This document shows, one piece after another, positions 2,191 through 32,558 of a stretch of DNA of 35,000 nt. The notes beneath the pieces are model-generated. The model ran no database searches. It was given only the letters and a program-made list of their open reading frames with translations, and had not been told where the DNA came from. The translations under genes were made by a program, and so were the position numbers. Each line of letters begins with the position of its first letter. The first letter of the stretch is position 1. The stretch is from the NCBI RefSeq assembly GCF_000485595.1, contig NW_014578069.1:52559-87558 (forward strand), in the 5' to 3' direction. Source of the DNA: Priapulus caudatus (taxonomy: Eukaryota; Priapulida; Priapulimorpha; Priapulimorphida; Priapulidae).

Positions 2191-2640
2191 CTATATGATT
2201 TCTCCGTATCTTTCCTTGAAGTTTTCATCGTCTTTCAATGTGTTTCGGTAGGTTTTCTGCGTGACTATTATTTTGCGCAGGCACTCATTTTGGAAATCCT
2301 CCAACACTTTTACTTCTTCCTTAGTTAAGTTAGTCCATGTTTCACTGTTATTTAGGAAGGAAGGTAAAACTGTGCATTCGTATAATTTCACTCTTGCTTC
2401 TATAGTATGATTTCCATAATTTTGCTCTTCTGCCCATGATAATATCAGGAGTGTATCAATATTGATACACTCCTGATAATATTTCCCTCATCATGAACCT
2501 ACATTTTTCAGTTCGGACTCTTATCATATCGTTATAATCTCCTATATCATTAATTAAATCCCCTAGGTATGATTATTTGGTGCATTTTTTTATTACTTGG
2601 TTGCCTATTAATATCTCCTTCTCTATCCTTTCTTTGTTTG
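2191..2640 (-). pseudogene. LINE reverse transcriptase C-terminal relic
   Basis: Read on the minus strand, pieces such as IGNQVIKKCTKSYLGDLIND, YNDMIRVRTEKCRFMMREIL and ARVKLYECTVLPSFLNNSET then WTNLTKEEVKVLEDFQNECL carry the YLG..I...G..., R.R..K and KLY..tVLPs.L..sETW signatures found downstream of the catalytic core in non-LTR retrotransposon reverse transcriptases. The element is fragmentary: no endonuclease and no complete RT core. A 30-bp palindrome with a 7-bp duplication interrupts it at 2439-2482; without it the frame runs from MMREILS directly into WAEEQNYGNHTIEARVKLYE. Confidence 0.75.
2439..2482. mobile_element. Micro-palindrome 1 (30 bp) with 7-bp target duplication
   Basis: The core at 2446-2475 is a perfect palindrome whose first half is CAGGAGTGTATCAAT and whose second half is its exact complement, with no spacer. 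Perfect direct repeats ATAATAT flank it at 2439-2445 and 2476-2482. The host sequence is a reverse-transcriptase relic read on the minus strand; deleting the core plus one repeat (37 bp) restores its frame, which argues for insertion rather than chance. Three further copies are at 14842, 18634 and 18681. Confidence 0.7.
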
Positions 2641-7529: not shown

Positions 7530-8370
7530 TACGTTTTCAATCTTCACGGTTGAGTAACAATTAACCCAGATAGATCGATAATGTGGAGTGTGGGGATTTG
7601 GTCAGTGCAGGACCTTCCTTTCCGAAATCCCGTCTGGTTGTCTCTTAAACTGCTATATATAGCTGCAGTCAGGCACTCCAAAATGATCCTCAAGGGAACT
7701 TTGCCGAGTACAGAAATCAACATTATACCTCTATAATTTCTGCATTGACAGAGGTCTCCCTTTTGGGGCAATTTGATTGAGTAACCTTCACGCCATTTGT
7801 CAGGTGCTTTCCCAGTCATCCAGATCTGGAAATAGACTGTGTGTAGCATATGTCTGCCTCCATGTCGACATCGACCTTAAGGTCCTCTGGTGGGATGTCG
7901 TCAGGACCTGCACCTTTCCCGTCTTTCAGCAATTGAATGGATTTCTTGATCTCCCTGTTGCTGGTTTGCTTAGGTCTACCTGAAGCTCTTCTTCAGCGGG
8001 TAGTATGTCGTCCAGTTCTTGAAGAGTGGTTGGATTGTTAATAACCTCTTTAAATTTTCTGCCCATCGTTTAAGCTGGGCCTCTGAGTCTGTGATCAAGT
8101 GGTTGATTGCATCCTTGATAAGTCTGTCCTGGGCTGAGTATTTCCCTGTAAGCTTCCTCGTAGTTGCATACGAATTTCTGAGGTTTCCTTTGGCAGCTGC
8201 TGTCTCTGCTTGCTTTGCAAGGGACTCAACATGCCTTCTTTTATCCTCCATGATACTATCCTTGACTTGTTTGTGTGTTTCTTGGTATTGGCTGTTAGAA
8301 AAGGTTTTACCTCTAGGTTTCTACTACTTCAAGGTTTGTCTTAGGCTTCCTCTCCTCGACAATGGCCCGT

Positions 8371-9945: not shown

Positions 9946-11063
9946 ATATCAGTTCAGTTCAGGGTAAGTACAGTGTGTGAATGGGGTTAGTATGCAAGTC
10001 AAGGATGCAATATTTATTTTTACAAACGCGTATCAGTACAGCAAGGAACTGTGTTTCGCCATGGCTGCAAATGATCTCTCTATAGTTTCACCTGCCTATA
10101 ATGGCTCCCCTTAACAGTGTGTGCATACGTGGTTAGGCCACACCATTTCTATGGGCCACACAGTCACTGAATAGGGCATGCCCTACTATATAAATTATCC
10201 ATGGTTACCACTGGCACACTCTGGTTGCCCAGAAACGTTGCCCAGCAATAATTAATATATATATGCTGAATGAGTCAGGCTGTAATGCCTCGCGTGTTTC
10301 CGTCAATGATCGACAAATGGAATGAATGACGTCTGTTATTGATTGCCATAGTGATGACCCCTACCTGTGCCCACCTCACGCTGGATGTGTAGTAATCTCT
10401 GTAGTACTGACGTGAGTCAGCGCCAGCATGACGCTACACAGCAACGACCAGAAGCAATACACTGGCCACAAAGCGAGAGACTGTCGCAGTAAACACTGAT
10501 CTCAAGTCAGTTTTCGGCAAAAATACCAGATTTTCACCACTCATTATCTCAGCGTAGGAGCATCGTAGGGAAAAGCGGTTTGTTTTATAAATTATATTAA
10601 CAAGGTTGATCAATAATACCGCAAAGAATCGTCAAAATAAAAATAGAATTTTTTATTTTGTTGGTTTACAGATCCGCCGACCCAAATTTTCAAGAAAAAT
10701 ATTAAAAAAATAAAATTGAAAATCTGTATTTTTTTTATTCCCGCTGACCTTTTCTTTAAAAAAAATGAATAAAAAAAATGTAAACTTGCACAAACAATTT
10801 ATAATAAAAGTAAAAATAATTACAAGTTGAGTTTTGTTTTCATTTAGTTTTCTTAAAATACTAAAATATCATGTATAACAGACAGTACCACTGTATTTTT
10901 ACTTGTTTGATCTGACAAAACAAGAATTTTTTTCTGTTTTTTTACCCTACCGAGTCAACAACAACAACAAAAATTCTGTAATCAAACAAAACAAAAAAAG
11001 GTGGCCTAATTATTAGTAGTCAAATTAAGAAACTTTGCCGATTTTATTTTGACGATTCTCCTG
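9946..11063. other. AT-rich non-coding stretch
   Basis: No gene is seen. From about 10620 to 11000 the DNA is extremely A/T-rich, with long A and T runs and ACA/ACAAC repeats, and contains GATCCGCCGACCCAAATTTT (10671-10690), reminiscent of the inner part of the GGCCAT/GACC MITEs. Confidence 0.4.
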
Positions 11064-11150
11064 AGAAGGAGAGCGTACAACGGTGAAATGGTGAAACCAT
11101 GTTGCAGTATTACATGGTTTCACCATTTCACTGTTGTACGCTCTCCTTCT
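11064..11150. repeat. Near-perfect hairpin, 39-bp arms and 9-nt loop
   Basis: The left arm (11064-11102) starts AGAAGGAGAGCGTACAAC and the right arm (11112-11150) ends GTTGTACGCTCTCCTTCT. They are complementary at 38 of 39 positions, with one G/T-type mismatch, around the loop TGCAGTATT. No flanking duplication is apparent. Confidence 0.8.
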
Positions 11151-13002
11151 TTATACGCTCTTAAAAATATGCATATAATTATGTATAAATGACTGCAATC
11201 TAGACACATACAACCCCTAATCTAGGGTCTTATTTCTTTTTATGCCCTTTATACCAAATAAACATCAACAAAACAAAAGATTGTTTTAAAACACCACAAA
11301 CATAATGCCTGGCCAGATCTCTCTATATATATATCACTACAATGGCGACACAGAACACTCGAAGCGGCGAGTGCGGGAGCGGCTAGTTCTGCATTAGTTT
11401 TTGTGAACGCAAATTAATATACAGCGACACAACAGTGGAGGTGTAATTGAGGGGTAGTATTTGTGAATGTGCAGTGTGCACTCATATTATTTTCAGTGTT
11501 TATTGACTCTGTCCCAAGTGCCTATAGCTGTGGTTTGACATATGAAAACAATTCCATTTGAAATGCAGATTGGTGCACATTTTGGTGGAAAGAATGTTGT
11601 GCGAGTGCTCTATGATAGTGCTTCATAAACTGGCAAATGGTTCACTTGGGAGGAATGACACTTACCAAAAACAAGGAAATTTAGTCGCGGCCAGTGAATG
11701 AAATTTTGATAAAGACTCGATCGAGGGTGAATGACACCGACATCGTTTTTAAGAAGCGCTGCTCTATGACATGTTAGCCTTACTAAATACATTTAGTGTT
11801 AAATATGCAAGGAGTTCCAGTAGCCAGTAAGTGTCAGCACGGTTGAGAACATATGAAAACGGTTGGTTAAATCATGAGAAATCCTCGCTTTAAGAGGAAA
11901 TTCGTGAGGATTTTTCGTTCTCGTAACTTTACGATATTTCTGCCAACAATTTATGAGTGGCCGGGTTATAAGACTCATTTTGTTTCGGGCAACGGCACCT
12001 AGCTCTTGTGAATTTTTCTATTATGATTTTTTCGCTCATTCTCTTATCTTTTGTGAGTTTAATTGTTCACCGCAGAATGCAAGAAGTAAGATTGTGTGTT
12101 CGAAAGGAGTATTTGAATGGCATTTACGTGGAATTATTAGGTAATGTAGAGTAGACTGTAGAGTATATTTGGTAGTATATTCATTTTTATTACTGAAACA
12201 GCTACAAGTGCCTGTGATTTGAATGGCACTTACGTGGAATATTATATTAGGCCTAGTAATAGTATTACTAATACTAGTCTGGTATAGAAAAAAATTAAGC
12301 TTAGAAGTGAAAGTCAGGCACCTCTGTGCTGCACTGTACTGTGTGTACATTCATGAGCCCCTACGCCACAGGGCAGTGGAACACATTATCATGTCGGAAA
12401 CGGTCCAACGATTCCACACATTGTCATTCGTGATATATTTATGCTAAACAAATCCAATACAAATTACAACGCTATCGATAAGTAATGAAAAAGTAGTGAG
12501 CATCCAAGTACTCAGTGCTCGCTTCCCAATACTGACGATTACAGACTATCGTATCGGATTCGTATAAATATACTAAACCGCTAAAACGCCGCAATAACAA
12601 AACCCGCTCACCAGCGGTGGACGCTTGAGACTTTTCTCTCGCTGTCGTCTCACACTCGCATTCGTCATTCCCACAGACGCACAGTAACGACTGTGTAGTC
12701 ATCTTACTGCTGCTGCTGCTGCTGTCTCTCCGTGGATCGTAGCATCCTTTACTAGTCACATACCTGATAGCGAGCTGAGAGAGCGGAGAACGGGATTCTC
12801 TAAAGTACTCTGCGTAAACTCACAATTCACACTGGCTGGTACGGAACAGTGCTCACGGCGAGCATCGAGTGACGAGTCATCGACGTCACCCGATGCTGCG
12901 TGCTAGAGCCACAGTGCGTGGGTTGCGCGCGCACGTGCGCATCGCGAAAACCCATCACGGCGGGAACCCTAATACGTGAGCATTCCTGCAGGGGTGTACT
13001 AC
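11151..13002. other. No recognised gene; small duplication and CTG run
   Basis: TTTGAATGGCA(T/C)TTACGTGG occurs twice (about 12112 and 12218), a short direct duplication 106 bp apart. A (CTG)n run of about six units lies at 12706-12723. Open frames here do not resemble known proteins. Confidence 0.4.
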
Positions 13003-14343: not shown

Positions 14344-14834
14344 AGCACAAAGTAGGTTCTCGATGTATTTTATACAATCTGACTGCTGTTATTCCAGAAC
14401 ATACATTACGCGCTATGTAAACTTTCGGGTCATACGATTTGATTGATCGTAAAATGAAAAAAATTTAATAGAAGCAACATATATTATTCTTGACATCATA
14501 TATGTAATCATGAAATCATGAGTGAATAAAAACTCTTTTTTATTAACTACTGATAGTACTTAAGATCGGTGGTCAGTTAGCAGGTCGGATTATATAGGTC
14601 GACCTATAGCACTACCCACTGTAAAATTAGCAGTATCTTTTTCATAAATAGGCTGTAAGATGTATCGCTATATAGTATTGTGACACTGTAATACGATCAT
14701 TGACCGACGTGTACGAGGAACATACGAATAACAACATTACATTATTCAACTCGGTTGTATAAAATACCATACTGTTTTATTGCGGTTATGCGTTATAGTC
14801 GATCGTAAAATGCGTCCTAGTCACGTTTTATGAC
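14344..14834. other. AT-rich, no recognised feature
   Basis: No exon, tandem repeat or transposon terminus could be identified in this stretch. Confidence 0.4.
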
Positions 14835-14880
14835 ATGTAATCAGGAGTCTATCAATATATTGATAGACTCCTGATGTAAT
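14835..14880. mobile_element. Micro-palindrome 2 (32 bp) with 7-bp target duplication
   Basis: The core 14842-14873 is a perfect palindrome starting CAGGAGTCTATCAATA. Flanking direct repeats ATGTAAT lie at 14835-14841 and 14874-14880. The target 7-mer differs from that of the other copies, showing that the repeat belongs to the site rather than the element. Confidence 0.7.
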
Positions 14881-15960
14881 TCTTAGATGGCTATATATAG
14901 CCACGATGCCTGCATGCGCGCACCTTCATCTTCCGTCCTTCACGCGTAGATATATTTACTAGTCCGGTAGTTGAAAACTTGAAGATGAATATTGATGCTA
15001 CCCGGAAAAAAATGGTATAAAGCTGGTTTTGGTGTCAAACGAAGCAGAATTCGGAGTAAAACAACATATCAAAAATTCGCAAAAATCTCATTGGGGAATT
15101 TTTTACGAGTCTGAATATTTTGCATATTTTTGCATGTTTTGTAATGGGAATGAGCATGAGCAAGGCTCGTCAAGTGATATGGAGAATGAAATGCCTCTAA
15201 GTAATAATGGTATGTACACTGCACACCTTCTATTAGAGAAGTAGAAACAGATGCTCATCCAGAGAGCCAAAGGAGTATGGAGGATCCCCAAGACCCCTTG
15301 ACCGATGTCGAGATGGAAATACCTGCTGCAGCAACGCTTATACCGGAATGCTATACCGGAAACAGAGATGCCAACACGTATTTGAAGCAATCTGTAGTTT
15401 CTGGCCATCAAATTAGTAGTTCGAGGGTCACGTAGTGACCCGAGTTTGCTAGGGGGGTCCGGCATGCCCCCCGGAAAAAATTTTGATTATGAGATGCAAT
15501 TTCCTGCATTCTGAGGGTCAAAAATGACAATAAATTGACAAAAAATGACAATAATTAAATTATTTTTTTTTCGATTACAGTGAAATTCGTAGTTTGATAC
15601 AAACTGGTTGTATTGGTGCAAAAAGGTATAGAAATTCGTATAAAATACGGATAAATCGTAGTGGTTGGCATCTCTGCGGAAACAACGCGATAGCACATAG
15701 TCGGGAACTAGTGACGGCGTGCATGTAGATTATGATGTTTTAACTGCAGTCCGGTATATTATATGCTTCAGCAGAATAGCTTACAGTGCATATTAACCAA
15801 TACCGACACTGATGAGACGTAATTAGTAAATGTAACAGGAAATGCAGGAAATGTAAACGTGCCTCGAACGCCATGCAGTTCCCTAGTTCTATGTTCTCAC
15901 AATATTCTCGGGGGAGGGGGGGGACCTTGCACCCTCGGCCGCGTTCACGCTCTGCGTCTT
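14881..15960. other. No recognised gene; GGGTCACGTAGTGACCC palindrome
   Basis: An open frame at 15029-15244 (+) has no family I recognise. At 15425-15441 there is a perfect 17-bp palindrome, GGGTCACGTAGTGACCC. It is followed by GGGGGGTCCGGCATGCCCCC and GGAAAAAATTTT, a motif seen at the ends of repeats in many aquatic animals; I infer a transposon-end fragment. Confidence 0.4.
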
Positions 15961-18626: not shown

Positions 18627-18717
18627 ATATTATCAGGCGTTAATAAAGACAAATTTGTCTTTATGAACTCCTGATATTATCAGGAGTGTATCAAAATTGA
18701 TACACTCCTGATATTAT
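18627..18717. mobile_element. Micro-palindromes 3 and 4 in tandem, three ATATTAT repeats
   Basis: Order: ATATTAT (18627-18633), a 40-bp imperfect palindrome starting CAGGCGTTAATAAAGACAAA (18634-18673), ATATTAT (18674-18680), a 30-bp palindrome starting CAGGAGTGTATCAAA (18681-18710), ATATTAT (18711-18717). The second is almost identical to micro-palindrome 1; its central AA/AA dinucleotide is the only non-pairing part. The first shares the ends CAGG..G and CTCCTG but has a different interior. Confidence 0.7.
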
Positions 18718-23201: not shown

Positions 23202-24022
23202 ACCTTACCAAGAGTAGATAAATAACAAGAGTGAGACAACCGATTCCCGCATTTTTAACCGATTTTGCTCATCAAAATTTACCACCAATAAAGAAGCAAG
23301 TGTATACGTTCCTCAGCTTATTATGACCACTAATCACTCACCTTCGTGGTACTGAAATTCGTTTACATATATTTGCTAGCGTATTGCTGTAAATCGTAAT
23401 CTTGCACGAGCTGAATTCGCACAATTTACCGCTTTTGTTGCGACCTGTTTAGCCATTATGTAGAAGCTATCGGGGCGCCAATATTTAGCAATGGACGTTT
23501 CCAAATCATTCGTGCCCCGATAGGGTTGAGAGACAATCTAAATTTCGAATTTTGATCTCGTGAGGAACCGCGAGACGCGCTCAGTTATTGTGATCGCAAC
23601 ACAAGAAATTGACATACTATCTTACATAAGTAATAATACAATAATAACAATATTCTCTGTAGTAGTTTGCAGTAAGTATCACATTACGCACGCGCAGGTA
23701 ATCAAGTACATTAAAAATAAAAATTGCTAAATATTGGCGCACCGATAGCTTCTAATAATGTCTAAACAGCTCGCAACAAGTCGCCATTTTAGCGGTAAAT
23801 TTATCGAATTCAGCTCGTGCAAGATTACGATTTACAGCAATACGCTGTCAAATATATGTAAACGAATATCAGTACCACGAAGGTGAGTGATTAGTGGTCA
23901 TAATAAGCTGAGGAACGTATACACTTGCTTCTTTATTGGTGGTAAATTTTGATGAGCAAAATCGGTTAAAAATGCGGGAATCGGTTGTCTCACTCTTGTT
24001 ATTTATCTACTCTTGACCTTAC
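23202..24022. mobile_element. 807-bp foldback element with 7-bp target duplication
   Basis: The left arm 23209-23492 and the right arm 23723-24015 are inverted copies of about 285-290 bp, roughly 95 per cent alike by eye, enclosing a 230-bp unique centre. The terminus is CAAGAGTAGATAAATAACAA on the left and its complement on the right. ACCTTAC flanks it at 23202-23208 and 24016-24022. It lies in a tropomyosin intron, 160 nt beyond the donor of the 70-nt exon. No protein is encoded. Superfamily is undetermined. Confidence 0.88.
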
Positions 24023-31906: not shown

Positions 31907-32558
31907 TTAAAGGCATACTAGGTCCATTGATTATGCAATGTTGAAGAATGGTAGAGTGGTAACTGGCACCTTGTGTAGTTAATAAGTACATAACCTTACA
32001 TCCAAACACGTATTAGTTTGTCCAATATCACTGCTGGTTACTAAGAAATGTCTAATTGAAATCCGCAATCCAAGAAATCAGTTGTTTACAGTTTCAAACC
32101 GCTGCCGGCGAAGCGGGTGTGATACAGATTTATAGTGCACCGGACATTTTCGTACGCATGCTCGGCCGTACGCAATGCTATCATCAGTGATTTCGTAAAC
32201 ACGGACGCTCGTGATAAGGCACTTTTTGTCACAGCTGTCCATGTGCGTCGGTGATTAGTACGTGTGTTTTACTCCATTTCCATGTTTAGTCCGTGGTCGT
32301 GGTTACACCGCAGACACCTCCATTTTATCTGGCGTCCAAAACATACGGGCCACACAAATGTTTACGTCATCGCTTGACTCCTGGATTACATTTACGGATT
32401 ACACATACAAGTCTTGCTTGTAATGTAACCAGCAGTGATATTGGACAAACTAATATGCGTTTGGATATAAGGTTATATGTACTTATTAACTACACAAGGT
32501 GCCAGTTACTCTAGCATTTGTCAACATTGCATAATCAAAGGGCCTAGTATGCATTTAA
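31907..32558. mobile_element. TTAA-flanked foldback element in tropomyosin intron 1
   Basis: Arms of about 135 bp (31911-32045 and 32420-32554) are inverted and highly alike. The left end is AGGCATACTAGGTCC; the right end on the minus strand is ATGCATACTAGGCCC; both run on to TTGATTATGCAATGTTGA. TTAA lies directly outside each end (31907-31910, 32555-32558), the target used by piggyBac and some other families. The 370-bp centre is not repetitive and has no convincing frame. Confidence 0.8.

Follow-up and report, generated by a model that had tools for sequence, protein, structure and literature searches.

The window analysed here is a stretch of 35,000 nt from Priapulus caudatus (GCF_000485595.1, contig NW_014578069.1, positions 52,559-87,558, forward strand). 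Exons of a tropomyosin gene lie on the minus strand between 24000 and 33700, and judged by eye one exon apparently exists in several alternative versions; each of the four frames tested gave a PF00261 match, which passed Pfam's cut-off in one frame and fell below it in three. Fragments resembling a non-LTR reverse transcriptase lie on the minus strand at 7547-8070, with a match to RVT_1 at 7547-7876 that is below Pfam's cut-off. The window also holds an inverted-repeat element of a different kind with TTAA at its outer ends (31907-32558), a 314-bp segment, perhaps another transposon type, that has CAGAGATGCCAAC as its ends and CGGAAA as a 6-bp repeat (15363-15676), and a hairpin with 58-nt arms, 83% complementary (11045-11169), around the core of which no 7-bp duplication was found. 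Set among these are four short palindromes, each lying between 7-bp direct repeats, and an unexcised element of 807 bp (Table 1). The four cores and every flanking 7-mer sit at the coordinates given in an initial annotation of this DNA; the 807-bp element was absent from that annotation and was found by a blind scan of the window. Its inverted-repeat arms extend for 241 bp (95%), its ends read CAAGAGTAGATAAA, and no transposase frame was seen in it.

Table 1. Palindromes, flanking duplications and unexcised element in the window, labelled according to the interpretation proposed in the text (scar, probable excision scar)
Feature	Positions	Strand
Left 7-bp target duplication ATAATAT	2439..2445	no strand
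Family A scar, 30 bp: two 16-nt end remnants, TA overlap of 2 bp	2446..2475	no strand
Right 7-bp target duplication ATAATAT	2476..2482	no strand
Possible degenerate fifth scar, 36 bp, 17+2+17; weak	14517..14552	no strand
Left 7-bp target duplication ATGTAAT	14835..14841	no strand
Family A scar, 32 bp: two 16-nt end remnants, blunt join	14842..14873	no strand
Right 7-bp target duplication ATGTAAT	14874..14880	no strand
Left 7-bp target duplication ATATTAT	18627..18633	no strand
Probable 40-bp scar of a further family (C), 20-nt arms	18634..18673	no strand
7-bp target duplication ATATTAT, common to the 18634 and 18681 scars	18674..18680	no strand
Family A scar, 30 bp, centre AA (14 + 1 + 15)	18681..18710	no strand
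Right 7-bp target duplication ATATTAT	18711..18717	no strand
Left 7-bp target duplication ACCTTAC	23202..23208	no strand
Family D unexcised element, 807 bp, end CAAGAGTAGATAAATAACA	23209..24015	no strand
Right 7-bp target duplication ACCTTAC	24016..24022	no strand

A palindrome scan of the window, run at a threshold above the imperfect 18634, listed five palindromes, comprising three of the four cores and unrelated ones at 2669 and 11064. In 30 windows simulated under a Markov-1 model palindromes numbered 0.03 on average and none had a duplication, so the four palindromes are beyond chance. The blind scan, for perfect direct repeats of 5-10 bp bounding terminal inverted repeats (at least 11/14) within 3 kb, returned exactly five matches at 7 bp, namely the four palindromes and the 807-bp element, and zero at 8, 9 and 10 bp; there were 11 matches with 5-bp and 6 with 6-bp repeats, some of them the same items in a shifted register. 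A similar scan gave one additional match inside the window, whose start is not CA, and no additional 7-bp case in 50 kb of the contig beyond it, which indicates an uneven density. The candidate at 14517 has no clear duplication at its flanks (ATGAAAT / ATAGTAC).

Palindromy over the whole length, as originally described for all four cores, is perfect for 2446 and 14842, while 18681 has a 2-nt mismatch at its centre and 18634 has two mismatched pairs. The first two represent a 30-bp class with a shared TA and a 32-bp blunt class, respectively, and the joint at 18681 is one of 30 bp with one base added or changed. The 40-bp palindrome at 18634 probably belongs to a separate family, C, known here from scars alone; a comparable 40-bp case, flanked by a separate duplication, occurs elsewhere (L006:935). 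The ATATTAT between 18634 and 18681 is common to both, implying a second insertion into the duplication made by the first, and at two other loci (L026:103-172, L044:141-230) two scars of different families likewise stand on one shared target duplication. In flies, double P insertions at a single target are known. Also seen were a family A scar nested in a remnant of another family (L002:1471-1556) and additional palindromes that have 7-bp duplications but differ in their end sequences (L014:1200, L006:160), which probably represent further families. The flanking repeats had been said to differ at 14842; in the window those at 2439 and 18674 are reverse complements, and 18634 and 18681 share one copy, so the four palindromes give just two distinct targets, and it is elsewhere in the genome that duplications differ by site.

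The 14-nt end of family A, CAGGAGTNTATCAA, has 1265 matches in the 385-Mb genome (633 forward, 632 reverse), compared with 3 (2 + 1) for its reversed control, and inverted pairs of it with a gap of 0-30 nt occur 341 times (control 0). Five full-length parents of 829 bp (C1 and C260), 843 bp (C14), 845 bp (C1608) and 847 bp (C215) carry the same ends with identical 7-bp duplications either side, which upholds the original suggestion that the cores are two transposon ends joined; a 952-bp copy (C1552) has no 7-bp match in the parental register. The end had first been read, from the window alone, as CAGGAGTSTATCAATAT; the parent shows CAGGAGTSTATCAATAG, so that the 30-bp class is 16+16 with a TA overlap, not 17+17 with an ATAT overlap. 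The search for parents gave 520 candidates for the 131-bp parental end, 40 of which were scored and 20 loci fetched, some of these being two ends of one element. Nine of the 20 had one exact end and no exact second end within reach, and three had no exact end; a relaxed search of these twelve recovered a second end and a perfect duplication in two (L113, 829 bp; L114, 319 bp), and two more, followed further, run into assembly gaps. Single-ended copies at L118, L119 and L139 end in stretches of N, and this assembly may be broken by long inverted repeats. Elements of 493 bp (L048) and 319 bp (L114) are internally deleted and keep 7-bp duplications, and further pairs of family A ends 441-819 bp apart were seen. 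Two more families were followed genome-wide, family B, whose end CAGAAGTAGATAATAGG gives 889 ends (control 0), and family D, to which the 807-bp element belongs, with 46 ends (control 0). A viral-contig scan found nothing.

Family A was sampled as the first 100 of the 1265 places in contig order, which a site rule resolved into 68 sites: 3 long copies (829, 843 and 493 bp), 56 short copies and 9 ends without a partner. Among the 56 short copies, two of which are a local duplication (L016, L017) and one place of which is counted twice (L064), 43 have a perfect 7-bp duplication, 7 match at 6/7, and 6 at 5/7 or below. It is important to note that the site rule behind this count used the duplication in part. 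In the subset of 30 pairs whose ends were defined from 14-mers alone, 22 have a perfect 7-bp duplication, 5 match at 6/7 and 3 lower, with 8- or 9-bp duplications in none of the 30, compared with 28 of 2000 when flanks of different sites were paired. Together with the same duplications in the parents, this supports the initial annotation's view of the 7-mers as target-site duplications. When both strands are read, the 43 perfect duplications comprise 26 different sequences with a symmetrised consensus of ATAWTAT, as target duplications with a palindromic preference would. In family D the duplication is 7 bp in 8 of 11 pairs and 8 bp in the other 3; in family B it is 7 bp in 8 of 14, 8 bp in 4 and neither in 2.

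Between these duplications the cores vary. The 56 short family A copies span 24-151 bp and include 46 distinct cores when strands are collapsed (42 ignoring base 8), and 12 of the 56 are perfect palindromes. One 30-bp core recurs at 9 of the 56 sites, on several different targets, with two of the nine belonging to the local duplication. We scored 68 joints, 43 from family A (after removal of 13 copies in which one side had fewer than 8 nt matching), 14 from family B and 11 from family D: 14 have an overlap of 2-4 bp, 7 are blunt, 16 carry 1-5 nt of filler, and 31 carry at least 6 nt, one of which (L044) is really two scars sharing a target. Typical products are 16+16 sharing TA (30 bp), 16+16 blunt (32 bp), 17+1+17 (35 bp; L013, L047) and 19+19 (38 bp; L123), as well as an asymmetric 24-bp class (L001, L023), explained if the final three bases of a 17-nt tail pair with CTA at positions 8-10 of the other tail. 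In the 31 long fillers, the longest stretch matching the remnants or the duplication has a mean of 6.5 nt, compared with 4.6 nt when shuffled, and only some fillers stand out individually, a modest sign of templated synthesis.

The amount of transposon end retained is limited, and the limit is characteristic of the family. Past position 17, 52 of the 1265 family A ends continue with the parental RAGT, and one of these parent-like ends belongs to a filler-bearing scar (C19:235562, L065). Of the ends that match exactly, many more come from scars than from parents, an excess that concerns exact matches only, since diverged parents may be numerous. The 95 non-parent ends in the 100-end sample keep 14 (10 ends), 15 (8), 16 (51), 17 (8), 18 (14), 19 (2), 20 (1) or 21 nt (1), that is, 18 nt or less in 91 of 95, with ends keeping fewer than 14 nt falling outside the sample because the pattern needs 14 intact nt. 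The 16-nt peak corresponds to the class with TA microhomology. Position 17 is followed by G in 50 of the 52 parent-like ends and in only 2 of 26 scar ends (A 16, T 7, C 1), which puts the family A limit at 17, with 18 still conceivable. The samples for families B and D were chosen by a 17-mer and therefore start at 17 nt. For family B, 14 of the 15 close pairs among the listed 100 places were used, and their 28 ends keep 17 (3), 18 (3), 19 (5) or 20 nt (17) and none more than 20; in the family B parents the next base is G in 6 of 6 ends. The 22 ends of 11 close pairs in family D keep 18 (5), 19 (13), 20 (1), 21 (1) or 24 nt (2), and the two of 24 nt look like templated copies of terminal CTCTTG. 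Nine of the 22 unpaired family D ends were read and keep 17 to 22 nt, the 22-nt one being parent-like (L135) and another ending in N (L139). The cut offset thus seems to differ by family, at about 17 (A), 19 (D) and 20 (B), for scars within reach of the 14- and 17-nt patterns, more heavily trimmed ones lying outside it.

Most probably, the palindromes in this one genome assembly are scars left by the excision of P-superfamily-like transposons, in which a staggered cut was repaired by end joining. We propose that such a transposon would insert at an AT-rich palindromic target (ATAWTAT in family A), duplicating 7 bp or, in families B and D, sometimes 8 bp. On excision, the transposase would cut one strand at the very end of the element and the other inside the terminal repeat, at about 17 nt (A), 19 nt (D) or 20 nt (B), so that a single-stranded remnant of the transposon would stay on each of the two chromosome ends. 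End joining by the host could then fuse the remnants through microhomology (TA, giving 30 bp), directly (16+16 giving 32 bp, 19+19 giving 38 bp), or by way of filler for which the remnants themselves served in part as template. The two remnants being inverted repeats, their fusion would leave a short, palindrome-like joint between the target duplications. We infer a stagger with 3' overhangs and an enzyme of the P superfamily. Counting against excision scars of this kind are the 9 of 68 sites that are partnerless, the 13 of 56 short copies without a perfect duplication, the limits of 20 and 19 nt in families B and D, which exceed the 17 nt of the fly P element, and the 4 of 22 family D ends longer than 19 nt, two of them the apparent templated copies.

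P-type transposase genes are present in the genome. A profile search gave 14 matches to PF12017 in the genome of the window and none in 14 control genomes, and one frame of 827 aa contains Tnp_P_element, both RNase H parts, the GTP-binding insertion and THAP9_C, five P/THAP9 families in all. Among 7988 candidates scored, 482 are relatives of this frame; few of the 120 listed are named, and the named ones are mostly THAP9-like animal proteins. We read 14 loci around the PF12017 matches (L081-L094, ~3.2 kb each) and three longer ones (L095-L097, 5.9-7.5 kb), and found in them no transposase-coding copy between family A, B or D ends. The only paired ends there are two elements of 689-695 bp beside P fragments, and no autonomous copy was seen at two long single-ended loci, where the stretches run into N. 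Membership of families A, B and D in the P superfamily is therefore a best inference from anatomy: duplications of 7 or 8 bp in all three; retention near 17 nt (17 in A, 19 in D, 20 in B), from which products a stagger is deduced; CA...TG termini in families A, B, C and D, as in fly P and Pdre2; and, in family A, the palindromic target ATAWTAT with its TANTA core. The hAT superfamily makes 8-bp duplications and leaves footprints derived from the flanks, not from the ends. Family A does not fit this, with no 8-bp duplication in 30 pairs and remnants that derive from the ends; families B and D do have some 8-bp duplications.

A transposase of some other superfamily, if it likewise cuts 17-20 nt into its ends, could have left the same scars, and the lack of any transposase found within these ends, as well as family B and D limits of 20 and 19 rather than 17, can be cited in favour of this reading. 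We consider it improbable, given the duplications of 7 or 8 bp, the CA...TG termini, a target resembling the GTANTAC of Galileo, retention in family A that stops at 17 nt and the P-type transposases in the genome; to our knowledge, no eukaryotic superfamily other than P makes so long a stagger. The initial annotation raised a different possibility, that the palindromes are themselves mobile in a minimal form, as a pair of fused terminal repeats on which a transposase acts in trans. Perfect duplications and the recurrence of one 30-bp core at 9 of 56 short sites would fit such a unit, which should be a single conserved core. What is found instead is 46 distinct cores in 56 copies, many asymmetric or carrying filler (the 24-bp class, for example), filler that matches the remnants more closely than shuffled sequence does, and full parents that share the ends. 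We regard continued mobility as very unlikely, and the variety of joints, together with a retained end that stops at a distance fixed for each family, argues against the hairpin-insertion process that had been raised beside it and is as left by end joining after staggered excision.

Deletion within longer inverted-repeat elements, leaving by chance the tips alone, deserves mention since deleted elements with 7-bp duplications (493 and 319 bp) and end pairs 441-819 bp apart do exist. Random loss gives no sharp, family-set limit at 17, 19 and 20 nt, and such an origin appears scarcely credible. On balance we also favour, with more reserve, the broader view that scars left by P-like transposons make up a large class of genomic palindromes so far unrecognised, that they outnumber intact parents here, that they record the stagger of each family (diverged at 17, 19 and 20 nt), and that their joints record germline end-joining over evolutionary time. 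The excision chemistry is already known from flies. What seems new is the abundance of the scars as a natural feature of a genome, the surplus of scar ends relative to exact parental ones, and cut offsets that differ among families within one genome; a literature search of titles and the openings of abstracts returned no description of genome-wide palindromic P scars. If this is correct, short palindromes flanked by 7-bp repeats in the genome of an animal could be taken as records of transposon departures, from which the cut offset of each family could be obtained without an enzyme assay and excisions counted against surviving copies. They would also form a natural archive of end-joining products, and serve as a warning to annotators that such palindromes are not elements.

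Palindromic MITEs are inverted repeats with target duplications that move as units, usually with an interior; unlike these, the Priapulus joints are 24-151 bp long and confined to element tips. Zebrafish Pdre2 and THAP9, as far as the accounts compared go, resemble the Priapulus case in the presence of a P-type transposase outside flies, ends starting with CA and internally deleted copies. Pdre2 differs in its 8-bp duplications and 13-bp ends of another sequence, and excision by zebrafish THAP9 in fly cells leaves larger flanking deletions, unlike the scars here. Galileo, a Drosophila element of the P superfamily, has a 7-bp duplication, GTANTAC, with three 8-bp cases in one species, in the description compared (PMC4168063). 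Priapulus shares with it the 7-bp and, rarely, 8-bp duplications, a palindromic AT-rich target with a TANTA core, and inverted repeats; the outer bases of the target are A/T here and G/C in Galileo, and the portion of that description compared makes no mention of palindromic scars (PMC4168063).

A close parallel is the repair of P excisions in Rad51-deficient Drosophila melanogaster, where products listed in Table 1 of PMC2895639 consist of an 8-bp duplication, up to 17 nt of one end, microhomology or filler (15 nt at most), as much as 17 nt of the other end, and the duplication again. The fly P transposase is described as cutting 17 nt inside the element end, giving 3' extensions (PMC7776569). 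By our count from that table, the AT class (14 isolates) is 30 bp and the TA class (5 isolates) 32 bp, and another 20 isolates show long microhomology with 8 or fewer end nt kept (PMC2895639). The fly joints are laboratory-induced with 8-bp duplications and include this large class that keeps few end nt, whereas the Priapulus scars are natural, have 7-bp (sometimes 8-bp) duplications and show limits of about 17, 19 and 20 nt. The order of parts, duplication, tail, microhomology or filler, tail, duplication, is nonetheless the same, and products of 30 and 32 bp are the commonest with short microhomology among the fly isolates tabulated (PMC2895639).
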